Source of the DNA: a virus
Length of the DNA: 25,156 nucleotides
IMG/VR virus record: IMGVR_UViG_3300008448_000579
Span: 1 to 25,156 of that record
Strand: one strand, 5' to 3'
In this document: one piece after another, positions 619-11,930 of the stretch
Layout of the letters: the number at the start of each line of letters is the position of its first letter
How positions within the stretch are numbered: the stretch's first letter is position 1
Notes under the pieces: model-generated
Seen by the model: only the letters and a program-made list of their open reading frames with translations
What the model was told of the DNA's origin: nothing
The model's database searches: none
Translations under genes and position numbers: made by a program

Positions 619-3510
619 TTATACCTTTGCTCCCTTTTGATATAGAGCAATCATATTTGCAAACACTTCCTCGAATCCCATTACAGTAGGACCTGAATTA
701 AATTCTGGTCTTCCACCGCCTCCACCACCCGCAACAGTGGTGTTGCTTGATCTTCTATTATCTGCTATCACTATGGGTGGCATAGAAGATGGTGAGGAAC
801 TTGCTTGATAAAGATCTGCGCTTAGATTGTTAGATGCCCATTCTACTAACGGTTGAAGTAATCCTTGTCCTATGAGAGATGCAGAATCTCTTGCATATCT
901 TCCCTGTAGAGGGAGAACCGCTTCCATTCCTGCTTCTCCAATAATTGCTCTTGTTTCCGAGGTGGCTATACCGCCTGTAGCAAATTCTTGTTCTTCATAC
1001 CTCTCCATCGTCCTCTCGCGGCGTCTCTCGGTGGCTGCGGCATTTCTTTTTCTTTCTTCTTCTATACCGACATATAAATCGGGTCTAAGTTCTTTTAGTT
1101 TTTCTTCTAGATCTACATTCTGTGTTGCTTGTAATTTTTCTATCAACGCTTCTTTAAGAGTTTTCTCTCCTTTCATGTCTCCGCTCATAAACGAGCGAGA
1201 AATAACAGTATCTATACCTTCTGGCAGAATTTCTCGTTCTGCATCCGATAGACCTTTCATTTTTTTCTCCAACGCATTCGTATATACATGCTCTATATCA
1301 GCGTATCCTATATTTCCATATAAGGGCACAGGAACTTGCAAATTTGGCATATTTTTTAAGAAATATTCAGCATTTTCTTCAATGATTTCATCGTTCAAAG
1401 TTTCAGCCATTGCTTGTCTATTTGCCATCATTAATGCTTGTTCTTTCATTGAAGGTCCAGTTAATTTGGCAAATTTTGCAGTTATTGCTCTATTTCCTGC
1501 ATTTTGCACATAATCTGATAGTACAGGTAATGGTAAATCCTGTAGATCAGGAATAAATCCCGATTTCCAGTCTGCTTGTGCTCTTAGTTGATCTTGACCA
1601 TCCTGCATCCACTGTTGAAAAACCAACATTTCATCTATTGCAGTTCCGTCTCCTGATGCCAATCTTGTTTGTATATCCTCTAGAACAGCGCCGGCGTTGT
1701 TTATGGAAAAATATTCTTTCCACAGTTGTTGTGTTTTTGCATTACTATAAATTCCTGCTAATGTATCTGCAACAAGTAGTCCAATAACAGCGATCATTCC
1801 AGGTCCCAGTGCGGCAGATTCTCCCACTAATGCAGGAACTAATTCGAACGCCGCTCCATAACCCGCATTTGTCAACAGAGAACTTGCAACATCATACCCA
1901 TTCAATTCGTTCCAATTTTGTTCCCAATCTCCTTGTCCAAAAACTCTATCAACTAAATCAAGAGCAGTAAATGCACCAGTGAATCCAAGAAATCCTTTAC
2001 TGGCTAATCCTCTTGGAACTCCTTTTACATTACCATATCTTGTTTTTATACCTTCTTTTAATGCTGCTCTTCTAGACCTAACGGTATCAGTTGTCGTACT
2101 TGTTTTTGGTTTTGCGGAAGTTGCTGGTTTTGCACTTTCTGTTGTTGGTGTTTCTATTTTAGGTGCTTCTGTAGGAGTAGAAACACTTTGTGATGGTGCT
2201 TTTGTCTCAGTGACAGGAGATCCTGTACCAGAAGTAGATGGTGCTTTTGTCTCAGTGACAGGAGATCCTGTACCAGAAGTAGATGGTGCTTTTGCTTCCG
2301 TAGAAACTGGTGTTTCGGTGACAGCAGATGCTTCGACGGTCGAAGTAGATGGTGCTTTTGCTTGAGAAGTTGCTGATCCACCTTGTATTCGTCTTATTTT
2401 ATCTTTTGCGGTCCGCTCTTGTGTTGCTACACCCTCTGCTTGCAGTGCCAATTTATCTGCCTCTATAGACAAAGATTTTGCCTTTTCGGCATTTGTTTCG
2501 ATACTTGCTTGATATCTTAATTCTGCCTCGCGTAATTTTAATTCATATCTTTGTTTTCCTAAAGACTCTAAATCTGCTTGAAGTTTAGAAATTTCTGTAC
2601 CACTACCTTCAGAAACTTTTGCTTCTGAGGCTGATTTTTGTTTTTCTGCTGCTTCGTTCTGTTTTACTGCTGCTTCTTTTTGTGTATCAGCCGCTTTCTG
2701 TTGTTTTTCTGCTGCTTCATTTTGTGCAGTAGATTTTTGTCCTTCTGCTCTTTGTTTTGCAGATTCCGCTTCTGCTCTTGCTCTTTCTTTTTCTGCCTGA
2801 GTTCTTGCTTCTTGAGCCGCTTTTTCTGCTTCAGCCGCTTTTTGTCTGGCTTCTTCTGCTGCTTTTCTTGTTTCTTCTGCTTTTGTTCTTTGTTCTTCTG
2901 CTTTTCTTCTTGCTTCTTCATCAGAAGCACTCTTTCTTTCACGCTCTCTCTTTTCTTTTTCTTTCTCTCTTTCTCTTTCTCTTTTCTCTCTTTCTCTTTC
3001 TTTTTTCTCTCTTTCTCTTTCTCTTTCTCTCTCTCTTCTTTCTTTTTCTTTTTCTCTCGCATCTCTGTTTTTAAAATAGTCTCTTATACTTTTAATTAAA
3101 TAACCAACTGCTGCACCTATAGCACCGATTGCCCAATTTATAAGATCTTTCAAAGCATCTTTTAACATATCCAAGAAACCTTTATCCTTGGATCCTTTTC
3201 CGATGCCAGTTATGCCCTTCAATATCTTCTCAAGATAATCGAATAGCGTATCCCATCTCTTTCCTTCTTCTTTCCATCTTTCTCGGGATTCCTCTATTTC
3301 CATGAAGGACTTCTTGTTTGCTGTCCTCATCATTTTTGCAATACTTCGGATATTGTCATTGGTTTGTCTGGATGATTTTGCTATATTTTTAATGTCCTTT
3401 TTGATAGAATTAAAAGGAGTCATTATGTTTCGCAAAGACATAACAGAGTCTGCTGCTGCTCTTGCACCAGAACCAACGGTTTGCATAACGCCTGATAGAG
3501 GATTTGGCAT
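619..3510 (-). CDS. Tail tape-measure-like protein
   Basis: This is a 963-residue protein. Residues 1-100 look helical and amphipathic. Residues 123-139 are a hydrophobic segment (INWAIGAIGAAVGYLI). Residues 151-190 are almost only Arg, Glu and Lys. Residues 195-300 are an Ala/Glu/Lys/Gln-rich TolA-like coiled coil. Near residue 400 is a Thr/Ser/Pro-rich linker with a duplicated 15-residue unit, then a second hydrophobic region at about 547-587 (MIAVIGLLVADTLAGIY). Near residue 857 the motif IGEAGMEAVLPL follows ATGGIA; this pair is characteristic of the C-terminal part of many tail tape measure proteins. A tape measure sets tail length and is ejected ahead of the DNA. Position supports the call: it is the last gene of the operon and directly follows a gp26-type chaperone with a frameshift extension. 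It would replace T4 gp29 (590 residues), to which I see no clear similarity. A weak purine-rich stretch (GAAAGAGATAAG) precedes the ATG. The main alternative is a non-tape coiled-coil tail protein. Confidence 0.78.
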   Translation of the reverse strand: MPNPLSGVMQTVGSGARAAADSVMSLRNIMTPFNSIKKDIKNIAKSSRQTNDNIRSIAKMMRTANKKSFMEIEESRERWKEEGKRWDTLFDYLEKILKGITGIGKGSKDKGFLDMLKDALKDLINWAIGAIGAAVGYLIKSIRDYFKNRDAREKEKERREREREREREKKEREREKREREREKEKEKRERERKSASDEEARRKAEEQRTKAEETRKAAEEARQKAAEAEKAAQEARTQAEKERARAEAESAKQRAEGQKSTAQNEAAEKQQKAADTQKEAAVKQNEAAEKQKSASEAKVSEGSGTEISKLQADLESLGKQRYELKLREAELRYQASIETNAEKAKSLSIEADKLALQAEGVATQERTAKDKIRRIQGGSATSQAKAPSTSTVEASAVTETPVSTEAKAPSTSGTGSPVTETKAPSTSGTGSPVTETKAPSQSVSTPTEAPKIETPTTESAKPATSAKPKTSTTTDTVRSRRAALKEGIKTRYGNVKGVPRGLASKGFLGFTGAFTALDLVDRVFGQGDWEQNWNELNGYDVASSLLTNAGYGAAFELVPALVGESAALGPGMIAVIGLLVADTLAGIYSNAKTQQLWKEYFSINNAGAVLEDIQTRLASGDGTAIDEMLVFQQWMQDGQDQLRAQADWKSGFIPDLQDLPLPVLSDYVQNAGNRAITAKFAKLTGPSMKEQALMMANRQAMAETLNDEIIEENAEYFLKNMPNLQVPVPLYGNIGYADIEHVYTNALEKKMKGLSDAEREILPEGIDTVISRSFMSGDMKGEKTLKEALIEKLQATQNVDLEEKLKELRPDLYVGIEEERKRNAAATERRRERTMERYEEQEFATGGIATSETRAIIGEAGMEAVLPLQGRYARDSASLIGQGLLQPLVEWASNNLSADLYQASSSPSSMPPIVIADNRRSSNTTVAGGGGGGRPEFNSGPTVMGFEEVFANMIALYQKGAKV
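2192..2281 (-). repeat. Two perfect 45-nt tandem repeats in the tape-measure gene
   Basis: Positions 2192-2236 and 2237-2281 are identical 45-nt units. On the coding strand they encode the 15-residue unit TKAPSTSGTGSPVTE in register. Diverged partial copies sharing GATGGTGCTTTTG follow at 2282 and 2347. The encoded stretch is a Thr/Ser/Pro-rich, probably disordered linker between the coiled coil and the second hydrophobic region. Confidence 0.92.
2944..3058 (-). repeat. 115-nt uninterrupted polypurine tract encoding an Arg/Glu/Lys helix
   Basis: Every base from 2944 to 3058 is a pyrimidine on the + strand, so every base is a purine on the coding strand. Only codons such as AGA, GAG, GAA and AAG occur, giving a helix of Arg, Glu and Lys over about residues 152-189 of the tape measure. 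Such E/R/K-dense sequence is typical of stable single alpha-helices. The tract is also quasi-repetitive (CTCTTT units). Confidence 0.92.
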
Positions 3511-3514
3511 ATTC

Positions 3515-3718
3515 TTATCTCTTTCTTCTTATTTTCTTTTGCTGCTCTTTCATCTTTTCATTCTTTTCCTTGACATATTTCACCAATAAACTCACATAAA
3601 TCGTTCTTTCCCAAGGTATCATGTTTTCTAAGTCTTCAAGGCTGTACTTGTGTTCCTGCATCAAGAGAAAATTGGTGTCGTACATTCCCTTGAGCGTTTC
3701 ACGAGACAGCCCTAGGCG
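3515..3718 (-). CDS. -1 frameshift extension of the gp26-type chaperone (GT-like domain)
   Basis: Immediately after the slippery site, the -1 frame is open for 67 codons to a TAA at 3515-3517, ending 4 nt before the tape-measure ATG. The extension reads RLGLSRETLKG, then a stretch containing YSLEDLENMIPWERTIYV, and ends in a Lys/Arg-rich tail (KEQQKKIRRKR). The fusion would have 236 + 67 = 303 residues. An internal ATG at 3685 could start a separate 56-residue protein, but its only AAGG lies 2 nt from the ATG, too close for a good ribosome binding site, so frameshifting is the better explanation. From memory, short proteins with an EEL/DLENMIPWER-like core follow gp26 in other T4-like phages. 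It may correspond in role to T4 gp51 or to the T part of lambda gpGT, binding the tape measure during assembly. Confidence 0.7.
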   Translation of the reverse strand, partial: RLGLSRETLKGMYDTNFLLMQEHKYSLEDLENMIPWERTIYVSLLVKYVKEKNEKMKEQQKKIRRKR

Positions 3719-4425
3719 AAAAAATCCATGAAGTTCTCAAGAACCAGTTTCACTTGTTTTTCTGCTAAAGGTGAGAACAGTTCTTGTTCTAGTCTGATTT
3801 TTGGAATGTTCACGAAATACTCTGTTAATTTTCCAAAGTGTTCTTTTTTCAGATTCTCTATAAACTCTTCCAAGTCTTCTGATTTTATATCCTTCGCTTC
3901 ATATACATTCTCTGAATCAAAAATATTAACAATGGACTTTTTCACTAGATTCAATATCGCAGAATATTCGTCTGTCTGAAGTTTGTCTAGTTCGAGGTAA
4001 ACATCTCTTAATGTGACATCTCGAAGAGTGATGCCGACTCCTTGTTCAAAAATGATCTTATCACTTCTGTTTTCGTCCTTAATTACCTTTGCATTCTTGA
4101 GTTCAAGTTCGGAATCGAAATACTGACCAGTTATTGGACATTTTACGCTTGCGTGTATTACTTCTCCAATTGAAACTTCTCTTAATTTAAGAAACAACCA
4201 TTGTGCATCGTATGCTGGTATTTGTTCTGGATCGAAGTCTTTATTCTGTACACAGTTTTTTAATACTTGATTTATGTTCGTTATGATTATTTCTGGATTT
4301 TCGCTATTACCAGAGATCATAAGAAGTTTTTCTTCCTTAACCAAGAAAGGACGATAGGTTATTTTCTTTCCATTTGAAGGAAGTGTTGTTGTATATACAG
4401 GTGTGCTTAACTTTGGTAATGTCAT
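3712..4425 (-). CDS. 26: gp26-type baseplate hub / tape measure chaperone (T4_baseplate family)
   Basis: 237 residues; T4 gp26 has about 208. The N-terminus LPKLSTPVYTTTLPSNGKKITYRPFLVKEEKLLM has the layout of the gp26 family (short leader, LPS-GKK, then YRPFLVKEEK), and DAQWLFLKLREVSIGEVI in the middle is the family's second conserved block. In T4, gp26 is needed for assembly of the central hub. Its place just upstream of the tape-measure gene, with a frameshift extension, suggests it acts like lambda gpG on the tape measure. A good Shine-Dalgarno (TGGAGAT) sits 5 nt before the ATG. The gene follows the tube-like gene by 12 nt in the same operon. The family call is strong; the chaperone role is inference. 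Confidence 0.85.
   Translation of the reverse strand: MTLPKLSTPVYTTTLPSNGKKITYRPFLVKEEKLLMISGNSENPEIIITNINQVLKNCVQNKDFDPEQIPAYDAQWLFLKLREVSIGEVIHASVKCPITGQYFDSELELKNAKVIKDENRSDKIIFEQGVGITLRDVTLRDVYLELDKLQTDEYSAILNLVKKSIVNIFDSENVYEAKDIKSEDLEEFIENLKKEHFGKLTEYFVNIPKIRLEQELFSPLAEKQVKLVLENFMDFFA
3718..3724 (-). promoter_or_regulatory. Candidate -1 ribosomal frameshift site T TTT TTC
   Basis: The gp26-type gene ends ATG GAT TTT TTC GCC TAG. The last T of GAT plus TTT TTC forms T TTT TTC, a standard X XXY YYZ heptamer in the correct phase. It lies one codon before the 0-frame stop, and the -1 frame beyond it is open for 67 codons. I did not find a convincing stimulatory stem or pseudoknot downstream; only weak pairing is possible around TGTCTCGT and ACGACA. 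Confidence 0.72.
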
Positions 4426-7838: not shown

Positions 7839-9160
7839 GTGATAAGACATTACTTATTGGTAATCTCTCAAATGTCCTCATTGTTTCTCCAGAGGGAACT
7901 ACTGACATATCTTCTGTAGTTACTAACATAGAAGTAACTGAGAGTATATTTTCTCCATTTATAAGTGGAAAAATTCTCATAAACGACACAGAATCAATAA
8001 GAGCAGTAAAGAAAGCAAAATTAAAAAGCGATCTATCGTGTAAGATAGATTTTTCTTTCTCTGGTCTAGAAGATGACGGCTCTTCCACTCAAAAAGAAAT
8101 AAAAATATCCGCACAGGATTACCTAATCTACAAAGTAGAACAAGGTGTTACTATGGGATATTCTACACAAACAACAGTAATATATTTTGCTCATAGACTG
8201 TTTTTTAAAAATGAAGCGAGTAACATTTCCAAGTCATTTAAAAAGAAAAAAGTAAGTGAAGTAGTTTCTCTATTAGCAAATAAACTTGGATGTAAATTCG
8301 ATCAGTTTGAACAGAGCGATAAAAAGTTTAATTTTGTTCTTCCTTACAGAACAATCGTAGGACAAATACATTTTTTGTGTCCGTATGCTAGAAGAGAAGA
8401 AAAACCATCAGACATAAATTTCTTGTTTTATCAGGATTTAGCAGGAAAACATAATTTTGTAAGTGTGGGAAAATTGATGGAGCAAGAATCTACTTTCGGA
8501 AATGATGTATCCAGTGGTTATGTTTATGGAATAAATCGAGGACAGGATTTTGCTTCAGCCAGAAAAGCAGCAATACATCATAATGTAAGCAATCAGTGTT
8601 CTTATGAAAATGCAGTAAATGGAATGGCATCTTCTGCTGTGATGACTCTGGATCCTAGCGAAAAGACTTGGGGAGTAACGACATATTTTCTTCCAGATCA
8701 ATGGAAGAAACAAACACATCTTTCCGATCAAGCAATAGTACCAGAAAATTCGGAAATGTATGAATATGTTAATGGAGCATTTTCACAAAGATTTTACATG
8801 AAGTCTCGTCATTCTCATTGCTGTAAGGAACAGAAAAACGGAAACAGCAAGATAGGTGGTTCAGACGATTGGTTGCTGCCTAGAATAAGTCAAATGGAAC
8901 AACTTAATCAGTCTTACATAGAATTTACAGCAACAGGTAATTCTGATATAAAAAAGATAGGTGCTGGTAAGGTAATATATTTCGGTAGAGTTTTGTTGAA
9001 TGAGTCTTCCAACACAAGCACAGCGGATAAAGATAAAATGGGTAGTGGTAAATATCTGGTTATGACAGTAGTGCATACAATAGCGAGAGCAAGAAGCGGT
9101 AAAATGGAGTACACTACAGCATTCAGATGTTGTAAAGATTCTTTCGGTGAGGAGCATTGA
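7835..9160 (+). CDS. 27: Baseplate central hub protein gp27-like
   Basis: 441 residues (T4 gp27 has 391). The N-terminal DISSVVTNIEVTESIFSPFI with ILINDTESI, then CKIDFSFSG, AQDYLIYKVEQ and IYFAHRLFFKNEA is the usual opening of gp27-type hub proteins, in which tube-like barrels form a ring at the base of the tail tube. KVSEVVSLLANKLGCKF and NFVLPYRTIVGQIHFLCPYA resemble the middle domain shared with other hub proteins (gpD/VgrG type). Near residue 325 is a short SRHSHCCKEQKNG with two adjacent Cys of unknown role. It lies between gp53 and gp5, in line with its role as the gp5-binding trimer. Translation is coupled to gp53 by ATGA. Sequence similarity to T4 gp27 is weak by eye, so the call leans on the pattern and gene order. 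Confidence 0.78.
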   Translation: MSDKTLLIGNLSNVLIVSPEGTTDISSVVTNIEVTESIFSPFISGKILINDTESIRAVKKAKLKSDLSCKIDFSFSGLEDDGSSTQKEIKISAQDYLIYKVEQGVTMGYSTQTTVIYFAHRLFFKNEASNISKSFKKKKVSEVVSLLANKLGCKFDQFEQSDKKFNFVLPYRTIVGQIHFLCPYARREEKPSDINFLFYQDLAGKHNFVSVGKLMEQESTFGNDVSSGYVYGINRGQDFASARKAAIHHNVSNQCSYENAVNGMASSAVMTLDPSEKTWGVTTYFLPDQWKKQTHLSDQAIVPENSEMYEYVNGAFSQRFYMKSRHSHCCKEQKNGNSKIGGSDDWLLPRISQMEQLNQSYIEFTATGNSDIKKIGAGKVIYFGRVLLNESSNTSTADKDKMGSGKYLVMTVVHTIARARSGKMEYTTAFRCCKDSFGEEH

Positions 9161-9161
9161 A

Positions 9162-10229
9162 ATGGAAAAAGGTTCTAATTCAACAGTATGGTATGGTGTA
9201 GTTGAGGACAGACAAGATCCTTTAGCCAAGGGAAGAGTCAAAGTCAGAATATTCGGTTATCATTCTTCTTCCACCGAGGATATTCCAAAAGAAGACTTGG
9301 TTTGGTCCGATGTTGCTGTTCCTGCGGTATTTGGTATAAACTCTGGAGTGGGTTTGTCACCCACTGGTGTTCCAGAAGGAACATGGGTAATGGGTATATG
9401 GAAAGACGATGGAGAAGGTACTCAACTTCCACTTGTTCTTTTTGCTCTTCCTGGTCATATTCCTGCGGAAACAAAAGAAAATCAAGGAAATGGTCTGGAT
9501 TATCTTCAGCAGGAAATAAAGAAAACCACTTATGTAGAAAATTATGGAGACGGGTTTCGAGATCCAAGAACAGAAGAAGAACTGGAAAAAGAACCAACCA
9601 ATAAATTTAAGAAAAAAGAATATCCAGATGGTAAAGGAAAGAAGGGCGATAAACGAGGAGCCCAGATAGAAAACGACAAAGCAGAGAAGTTTCCTAGAAA
9701 GCAGTCGAATGACTGTATAAATTTCGTAGATGGAACTATGTCCGACATGTCGGTTTTGGCAACAAATAATGAAAAATACATCGACAACACTATTGTCGGT
9801 TATAAAAGAACCTCCAGAGAAAAGGGAGGATTGTTGGATGATGGTGTCAAGATTGCATCTATAGAAATGAAACCCTTTAAGTGCGGAGTTACAAACGAAT
9901 CTAAAGCAAATAAAGGAACAAACAAGAAATTAGGTATAGGTGACAATACTTTGGTTTGTACTTGGGTTTCCTCCACTTTTGAAAACTACGCAGCAAAAAT
10001 AGAGGAACCTACAAATTCTAACAACGAACCAGTGTATAAAGATCCAGAAACAAGTTCCTCGTATAAAAGATATAATAGTCAGCAAGAATTCTTCGCTAAA
10101 GCGTCTGAGCAGGAACTTCAAGATTATTTTGAAGCAAAACTTTTTTCTGAACATTCAAATTGGGAAGATAGCAGAGTAGAAGCAGAAGCAAGCAGACAAG
10201 CACAACAAATTATAAAGAATAGAAAATAA
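9162..10229 (+). CDS. 5: gp5-like hub protein, OB-fold half, no lysozyme domain seen
   Basis: 355 residues from the ATG at 9162. That start is chosen because GAGGAG at 9149-9154 is well spaced; the upstream GTG at 9147 lies within this RBS region. Residues 1-115 are a gp5-type OB-fold: YGVVEDRQDPLAKGRVKVRI, FGYHSSSTEDIPKEDLVWSD, then SPTGVPEGTWVMGIWKDDG and LVLFALPGH. Residues 116-355 are polar and charged (KKEYPDGKGKKGDK; later NDCINFVDGTMSDMSV and GDNTLVCTWVSSTFENYAA) and I do not recognise them. The T4 gp5 lysozyme domain (Glu-Asp-Thr, GIGHL motif) is absent. The gene stops at TAA 10227-10229, and the next gene, the needle, is in the same frame starting at 10233. Together they cover OB-fold and needle as T4 gp5 does. 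The C-terminus is a Glu/Gln/Lys helix. Confidence 0.82.
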   Translation: MEKGSNSTVWYGVVEDRQDPLAKGRVKVRIFGYHSSSTEDIPKEDLVWSDVAVPAVFGINSGVGLSPTGVPEGTWVMGIWKDDGEGTQLPLVLFALPGHIPAETKENQGNGLDYLQQEIKKTTYVENYGDGFRDPRTEEELEKEPTNKFKKKEYPDGKGKKGDKRGAQIENDKAEKFPRKQSNDCINFVDGTMSDMSVLATNNEKYIDNTIVGYKRTSREKGGLLDDGVKIASIEMKPFKCGVTNESKANKGTNKKLGIGDNTLVCTWVSSTFENYAAKIEEPTNSNNEPVYKDPETSSSYKRYNSQQEFFAKASEQELQDYFEAKLFSEHSNWEDSRVEAEASRQAQQIIKNRK

Positions 10230-10232
10230 AAT

Positions 10233-11930
10233 ATGAGCAGAGAAGATCTTTTAAATAATTGTGATCCACCAATTCTACCGCCAGACGGTGGGGGCGGTAA
10301 TTCTGGTCCTGGCGGTCCGGGCGGTCCTGGCTCTGGTGGTGGTGGAGGCGGAGGAGGTAGAGGAAGGGGTGGTGGTGGAGGCGGAGGAGGTAGTAGACCT
10401 TCTAGACCAAGACCTATAGATCCAGTAACTCCATCCAGACCAGCAAATGGTGGTGGAGGTGGCGGCGGTGGTGGAGGCGGAGGAGGAGGGGGTGGAGGTG
10501 GCGGTGGTGGTGGAGGTGGTGCTGGTGGTACTCCTATTTCATTAAGATGTGATCCTTTCTCTGGACAGAATAAAGAAATAAACAAAGGGAAAGGTTGGTC
10601 TGAAACCCCAACTCAGTATGCAAAAATTAAAGGAAAAGATTTAAAGAAAAGAAAAGGTTGCGTAGATTGTGAAGGTAGCGACGGTGATGGTCCCGATGAC
10701 GCCGAAAGATTTCAAGATCTGACAATCTATCCTTATAATAAAGTAATAGAAACAGAGTCTGGACATGTGATAGAACATGACGATACTCCAGGCAGTGAAA
10801 GAATATCTTTAAATCATAGAAGTGGTTCTTTTGAAGAATATCACCCAAACGGAGATAAAGTAGTCAAAGTAGTGAGAGACGGTTATGTTTCTGTTCTACG
10901 AGACAGTCATGTGCATGTCGATGGTTATTGTGATGTGACTATAGACAAAGCACTAAAAATACTTGTGAACACGGACGAAATGAAAAGCACGGAATCAGAA
11001 GCAGTGAATTTTGATATTCATGTTATGAAAGGTGCAAATGTTAACATATACATCGAAAAGGGAAACCTTAATGTTAAATTGGATAAAGGCGATTCCAATA
11101 TTCAATTAATGGATGGTGATGTAAACATACGACAAGATTGTGGTAATTACAATCATTTTATAAATGGGGATTACAATTTAGAATGCACGGGACATATGCA
11201 TGTGGTTGTGGGGGAAGATCAAGTAACAGAAATAGGTAGAAACCGAGATGTTCGTATAGACGGATTGTTTGACAATCTCCAATTAACTAACGGAGAATCG
11301 GTAAAGGAAACACAACTGGAAGGTTCTTGTAGTACACTAGTAAAAGGGAGAACCAAGGAACAATATGAGAAAAAAGTGGAAAGGTTGTATAATGGAAAAA
11401 ATACGGAAGGACTAGTGGAAAGAGGACAAAAGTCACAAAGAACATTTGAGCAAGAAATTGAAAAATTCGGAACTCTGACCAAAAAGATAACTGGCGATTT
11501 TTCACTAGAAGCAAATAATTCAGTAATACGAGCATCTGGTGATAATTTCTTACTGTCAGACGGTAGTGCAGGAATACAAGCATATACAAATATCTTCATT
11601 GATGCTGGTATTTCCGAAACAAAAGGAACAAACAAAGATGCGGTTCTGAGAATGCATTCGCAGAATCTTTCTTTCATAGGTGGTAAAAAAGCAACAAATA
11701 TTTTCTCCAGAGATGCTTTGAGACTGTCCTCTTTGACAAACATAACACTATTTGCAAATAATAAAATGTTTAAAAATAAAGAATTCGAAGATGGTGGTAC
11801 TTTCACCGCAAATGAATTACCCCTCAGAACTACAGTGGCTCTACCACAGGATCCACTATTACCTACAAAATTTATTGATTGTCCGCCAGGAAAATGGATA
11901 CCAACGAAACAAAGCACTAGATGTAAGTAA
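10233..11930 (+). CDS. gp5 needle-like protein (C-terminal beta-helix) with polyglycine N-terminus
   Basis: 565 residues. Residues 19-53 are collagen-like and Gly-rich (GPGGPGGPG, two G8 runs); 73-96 are 24 consecutive glycines. Residues about 145-225 carry the gp5-type entry to the needle: ERFQDLTIYPYNKVIETESG, HVIEHDDTPGSERISLNHRS, GSFEEYHPNGDKVVKVVRDG. From about 265 come octapeptide-like turns with Gly every 8 or so residues (KGNLNVKLDKGDSNIQLMDG, DVNIRQDCGNYNHFINGDYN), the signature of the gp5C/VgrG triple-stranded beta-helix that pierces the outer membrane. No PAAR-type tip is seen; the C-terminus is Cys/Pro/Lys-containing (FIDCPPGKWIPTKQSTRCK). It is separated from the OB-fold gene by only AAT after its TAA, in the same frame. 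No clear Shine-Dalgarno is present, so reinitiation or termination-coupled starting is likely. Confidence 0.82.
   Translation: MSREDLLNNCDPPILPPDGGGGNSGPGGPGGPGSGGGGGGGGRGRGGGGGGGGSRPSRPRPIDPVTPSRPANGGGGGGGGGGGGGGGGGGGGGGGGAGGTPISLRCDPFSGQNKEINKGKGWSETPTQYAKIKGKDLKKRKGCVDCEGSDGDGPDDAERFQDLTIYPYNKVIETESGHVIEHDDTPGSERISLNHRSGSFEEYHPNGDKVVKVVRDGYVSVLRDSHVHVDGYCDVTIDKALKILVNTDEMKSTESEAVNFDIHVMKGANVNIYIEKGNLNVKLDKGDSNIQLMDGDVNIRQDCGNYNHFINGDYNLECTGHMHVVVGEDQVTEIGRNRDVRIDGLFDNLQLTNGESVKETQLEGSCSTLVKGRTKEQYEKKVERLYNGKNTEGLVERGQKSQRTFEQEIEKFGTLTKKITGDFSLEANNSVIRASGDNFLLSDGSAGIQAYTNIFIDAGISETKGTNKDAVLRMHSQNLSFIGGKKATNIFSRDALRLSSLTNITLFANNKMFKNKEFEDGGTFTANELPLRTTVALPQDPLLPTKFIDCPPGKWIPTKQSTRCK
10287..10391 (+). 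repeat. Collagen-like Gly/Pro-rich coding repeat
   Basis: GGN-rich DNA encodes residues 19-53 of the needle protein. It includes GPGGPGGPG and two runs of eight glycines separated by RGR. Confidence 0.85.
10449..10520 (+). repeat. Run of 24 glycine codons
   Basis: Twenty-four in-frame GGN codons (mixed GGT, GGA, GGC and one GGG) encode residues 73-96 of the needle protein, followed by GCT GGT GGT. The mixed codons argue for selection on the protein. The GGN repeat could still slip in replication or form G-rich structures. Confidence 0.92.

Follow-up and report, generated by a model that had tools for sequence, protein, structure and literature searches.

The 25,156-nucleotide stretch of virus DNA analysed here (positions 1 to 25,156 of IMG/VR record IMGVR_UViG_3300008448_000579; hereafter the window) carries a gene of the T4 gp26 type that stops just after a run of T, and an open frame continues past its stop in the -1 register almost to the next gene. 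This raises the question of how the phage makes its counterpart of T4 gp51, and whether the gene and the frame beyond it are expressed as one protein pair. In lambda, G and G-T are encoded just before the tape measure gene, and the slippery site is G_GGA_AAG. Their products, the short protein gpG and the -1 frameshifted long protein gpG-T, act on the tape measure protein (PMC5009743), and a 2016 review described the G-T frameshift system as conserved "except T4" (PMC5009743).

Results

The gp26-type gene ends in an in-phase slippery heptamer

The gp26-type ORF occupies positions 4425..3712 on the minus strand, encodes 237 aa and has a 3' end that reads GAT TTT TTC GCC TAG. The sequence-only reading had placed the heptamer TTTTTTC (3724..3718) one codon before the stop in the zero-frame phase T_TTT_TTC, and this phase and position were confirmed. 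Its statement that the -1 frame is open over 67 codons and closes 4 nt before the next ATG was correct at every coordinate: past the slip site the frame reads FF-RLGLSRETLKG..., with 67 codons after FF, and ends in TAA at 3517..3515, with only GAAT between this stop and the ATG at 3510. The internal ATG at 3685 had been described as having no usable ribosome-binding site, which is a fair description, as AAGGG lies only 1 nt upstream of it, too close for a normal site. The features of the locus are as follows.

3712..4425, minus strand: gp26-type gene, putative short form of a tail assembly chaperone (TAC-N, like lambda gpG), by PF12322, phrog_150 and AlphaFold2
3718..3724, minus strand: slippery heptamer T_TTT_TTC in zero-frame phase, kept in 94/99 and 80/80 loci
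3712..3714, minus strand: zero-frame stop codon TAG of the short form
3515..3718, minus strand: -1 frame extension (gp51-type C-terminal domain, TAC-C), 67 codons plus TAA, by profiles and dN/dS
3683..3685, minus strand: internal ATG, an unlikely start, some twelve codons inside the conserved extension
619..3510, minus strand: probable tape measure protein gene, 963 aa, by position, size and a weak phrog_1538 match

Within the 15 main genes of the window (7,936 codons), T_TTT_TTY occurs in phase once, exactly at the slip site. Across 99 gp26-type ORFs the in-phase motif lies near the 3' end in 94, compared with 14 occurrences elsewhere in 22,117 codon positions. The heptamer is therefore present at the slip site of the gp26-type gene well above chance.

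The -1 extension corresponds to the C-terminus of T4 gp51

The gp26-type protein matched PF12322 (T4_baseplate) over its full length (2.8e-45, profile positions 2-219 of 219), as well as phrog_150 (1.3e-45), and its AlphaFold2 model had a pLDDT of 91. When the predicted fold was compared with solved structures using a second aligner, the top match was the HK97 tail assembly chaperone 2ob9, at a Z of 7.8 that falls below the caution level of 8 (rmsd 3.5 over 83 residues of the N-terminal domain). An uncharacterised B. stearothermophilus protein (3fgx) followed at Z 7.7, and the best row after these two reached Z 4.5. Because Foldseek alone found nothing significant among solved structures (best E 0.018, HK97 chaperone at 0.49), we treat the resemblance of the predicted fold to the HK97 chaperone as supporting evidence only.

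The -1 extension matched phrog_634 (3e-25), whose annotation reads "baseplate hub assembly catalyst", and, at 4.9e-07, the C-terminal end of phrog_150. The second match would be expected if body and extension form a single protein in some phages, as they do in T4. T4 gp26 (208 aa) and T4 gp51 (249 aa) both belong to PF12322, with the last part of phrog_150 and phrog_634 being covered by gp51 only and not by gp26. A profile built from the extensions of relatives, leaving out the window's own clade, matched the -1 frame of the window (2.5e-28) and the C-terminus of T4 gp51 (residues 206-246; 1.2e-06), and also recovered gp51 of RB43, Aeromonas phage 31, SFHK24 and Acj9, while T4 gp26 was not matched by it. 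Since the profile matches the C-terminus of gp51 and not gp26, and both proteins are PF12322 members, T4 gp51 is most readily understood as a paralog of gp26 that carries the extension. Compared with the closest relative (L002), dN/dS in the extension was 0.11 in the -1 frame and 1.0 and 4.3 in the other two frames, showing purifying selection on the -1 frame.

A gp26 search of the 25-kb record, which is a genome fragment, matched a single place, and no independent gp51 gene of full length, with a start of its own, was found there; only the C-terminal extension was present, after gp26 and in the -1 frame. T4 has short and long forms from two divergent genes, 26 and 51, whereas the window phage would use one frameshifted gene. 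T4 gp26 still ends ...GLKEFFELL and lacks the extension that gp51 carries. The earlier suggestion that the gp26 and gp51 functions are made as one frameshifted pair fits these data well, given that the extension is a homologue of the T4 gp51 C-terminus and is absent from T4 gp26. In the T4 gp26 gene (L001:5803-6429), TTC TTT encodes the FF of the presumed old slip site, a codon pair that is not slippery, and the -1 frame is closed immediately; a replacement of frameshifting by duplication in T4 would be expected to leave this pattern.

Neighbouring genes

The gene that follows the extension lies 4 nt on, on the same strand, and encodes 963 aa. It had been called the tape measure gene; the ATG is where it was said to be, and the identity is probable, by position, size and a weak match to the phrog_1538 tape measure profile (0.0028). 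No significant match was found between this ORF and the tape measure protein of HTVC008M. At 2937-3058 and 2192-2294 (minus strand), the ORF has a long charged stretch rich in Lys/Glu/Arg, encoded by a CT/AG-rich repeat, and an exact 45-nt repeat in 2.3 copies. Elsewhere in the window, a gp5-type hub/lysozyme seems to be split into adjacent plus-strand ORFs, of which the first (9147-10229) matches positions 12-141 of phrog_430 and the second (10233-11930) positions 334-529; the second also contains long glycine runs at about 10340-10530.

The heptamer is conserved across distant relatives

Conservation was assessed in 99 readable gp26-type loci, comprising the window, 78 IMG/VR loci and 20 GenBank phages; L080, which runs off its contig, and L081, which has an early stop, probably through an indel, were excluded from the counts. 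In 94 of the 99 loci, T_TTT_TTY was found in phase within the last 14 codons. Carriers include P-SSM2, S-PM2, S-CAM4, HTVC008M, Mosig, Melnitz and Cr30, as well as phiM12, phiW-14, LPCS28, PVA8, phiAS5, Ps15 and OLIVR6. The 48 heptamer loci that remained after redundancy was removed (<85% identity) had a median pairwise identity of 0.34, with identity to the window as low as 0.21. Given the amino acids and the codon usage of each locus, the log10 probability that all 48 would use NNT TTT was -26, a value that measures codon choice rather than discovery because possession of the site was what selected these loci. A search with the extension alone gave a less biased test, although some of its loci share contigs with the first set, and here the heptamer was correctly placed in 80 of 80. 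Alignment of related phages, which had been put forward as a way of checking the heptamer, its phase and the -1 frame, thus supports the proposal in both sets.

The five exceptions to T_TTT_TTY were RL38J1 (T_TTT_TTG), the Ackermannviridae S118, phiMAM1 and 207E48.1, and Cygsa01, all of which keep a T run at the same spot. In the Ackermannviridae and Pseudomonas phage Cygsa01 (L090, L102, L103 and L099), TTTTC or TTTTT stands in place of T_TTT_TTY, and in S118 the -1 frame is open despite the missing motif. These sites possibly support a one-tRNA slip on U_UUC.

A downstream hairpin in the window's clade and an upstream SD-like element elsewhere

Downstream of the heptamer, the window is predicted to form a 12-bp hairpin (-29.1 kcal/mol, fold z -3.58), with the following arms.

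3700..3712, minus strand: hairpin 5' arm (GGGCUGUCU-GUG), starting 5 nt after the heptamer
3639..3652, minus strand: hairpin 3' arm (CAC-AG-ACAGCCU), outside the pattern used to find relatives

The same outer stem, ~5 nt past the heptamer, was present in all hairpin relatives, namely L002 and nine further contigs from a pattern scan, together with L109 and L110 from the extension search. Synonymous identity was 0.89 in the 5' arm, part of which the search pattern had fixed, and 0.77 in the 3' arm, which lay outside that pattern, compared with 0.52 between the arms and 0.63 after the hairpin. One double change, from G-C to A-U and silent on both sides, was found in L109; as a single event, this covariation was not significant alone (60 of 500 shuffles). 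The case for the hairpin rests on synonymous constraint, not on formal covariation. Across the family, the 70 nt downstream of the heptamer fold better than synonymous recodings of the -1 frame (mean z -1.59, standard error 0.23).

The family also shows an SD-like 8-mer that has its peak some 15 to 8 nt ahead of the heptamer and is stronger than expected from synonymous recoding in 38 of the 48 loci (mean z -1.04, with a standard error of 0.20 that is optimistic because the loci are related). The window's clade lacks this element, the median strength there being -2.7 kcal/mol vs -5.65 elsewhere. As a stimulator in the window itself the element was rejected, being weak (-2.7 kcal/mol) and no better than synonymous recoding. 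Across the family, SD strength and downstream folding were not correlated (rho -0.04), and an exchange of the SD-like element for the hairpin is seen only as a difference between clades. We give roughly even odds to a history in which the slip site is ancient, the upstream SD-like element was lost and a strong hairpin kept in the window's clade, and the T4 branch instead underwent duplication into gp26 and gp51.

Independent starts and other explanations for the open -1 frame

In the -1 frame, no ATG, GTG or TTG precedes the conserved LSH motif in 35/48 and 59/80 loci, among which the heptamer is universal. In 19 of the 80 extension-fetched loci the heptamer directly adjoins a stop in the -1 frame, and the frame is therefore entered there only at or after the heptamer. 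That the extension is a small gp51 protein in its own right, translated from an internal ATG or by ribosomes re-initiating past the gp26 stop, is difficult to reconcile with these counts and with T4 gp51, in which the extension is fused in frame to a gp26-like body. Such a protein is what the records of P-SSM2, Cr30, PVA8 and HTVC008M imply by placing the gp51 start at an ATG close to the stop or beyond it, yet the annotated start positions vary between records. In a minority of relatives an ATG overlaps the gp26 stop (TAATG or TGATG), and re-initiation could add free extension there; the window has no such overlap, its first extension ATG being the one at 3685. Re-initiation and internal starts were rejected as a general mechanism because the starts are not conserved, and overall we regard the separate protein as improbable. 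Relatives that lack the heptamer and have an independent start for the second protein had been named as the observation that would count against frameshifting; they were sought, and what was found instead was a near-universal heptamer and starts that are not conserved. In the GenBank records examined (L083, L085, L084, L086 and L091), gp51 starts at +2, +5 or +53 from the gp26 stop, and the S-CAM4 record omits gp51. A joined CDS for the two frames was absent from every GenBank record inspected, with gp51 being given a doubtful start or left out.

A slip in the other direction was also considered, and a plain +1 shift was rejected, with the +1 frame closing within a few codons in most loci. Slippage of RNA polymerase on the T run, which would give a share of mRNAs with an extra U, appears slightly less probable still than a separate gp51: runs of 6-9 T occur at the site, reaching 8-9 T in some relatives, but the window has six T only, a T always precedes TTT so as to give the exact tandem-slippage heptamer, and the elements flanking the site, a hairpin downstream and an SD-like sequence upstream, are ribosomal stimulators. 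That both parts together correspond to one T4 protein, gp51, is what would be seen had a single ORF been split by a sequencing or assembly indel or by gene decay. The same architecture recurs, however, in well over 100 loci from independent assemblies and cultured phages, and the -1 frame is under purifying selection; by this conservation, a split ORF appears already refuted and its probability negligible.

Discussion

The gp26-type gene and the -1 frame beyond it very probably constitute one tail assembly chaperone gene that is read two ways by -1 slippage. The phase of the heptamer, its conservation and the selection acting on the -1 frame support the programmed -1 frameshift that the sequence-only reading proposed, and from these we infer a fusion product joining the gp26-type chaperone to the extension. 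The majority of ribosomes would end at TAG and produce the 237-aa short form, while a minority would slip back one base on U_UUU_UUC, with the two tRNA-Phe re-pairing from UUU/UUC to UUU/UUU, to produce a long form of roughly 303 aa with the gp51-type extension. The slip rate is probably increased in the window's clade by the 12-bp hairpin that begins 5 nt downstream, and in most relatives probably by the SD-like sequence lying about 8-15 nt upstream. The proposed pair resembles lambda gpG and gpG-T in consisting of a short and a -1 long protein and differs in its heptamer, which is U_UUU_UUC in the window vs G_GGA_AAG in lambda. By analogy with lambda G/G-T, the short form may coat the tape measure and the extension may recruit tail tube subunits.

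Vladimirov et al. reportedly found in 2022 that frameshifting is kept in several T4-like groups and that T4 uses genes 26 and 51. The tail assembly chaperones of these phages were identified in that study (Vladimirov, Gautam and Davidson 2022, Virology 566:9-15), whose title is cited in PMC10885494; PMC12846349 refers to it for the polyT -1 slippery sites of T4-like TAC-N genes. A frameshifted chaperone in T4-like phages is already known, and the window, from a marine T4-like phage, is a well-supported further case; the present analysis adds the hairpin, the upstream element and the breadth of conservation. In the Vandenendeviridae and Andersonviridae (phage Adele), -1 frameshifting of the chaperone takes place at a T-rich, conserved site that precedes the tape measure gene, and the extension is routinely annotated as a separate gene (PMC12846349). 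Those are other phage families and their motif is GTTTTT, whereas that of the window is T_TTT_TTC.

A shortened cyanophage gp51 was observed in 2010 without a frameshift explanation (PMC3037559). In our reading, the marine T4-like gp51 that seemingly lacks its first ~200 residues would have its missing part in gp26, to which it would be joined by frameshifting. The slip site and its clade-specific hairpin may offer a compact system for studying how the ratio of a frameshift is maintained as its stimulators change.
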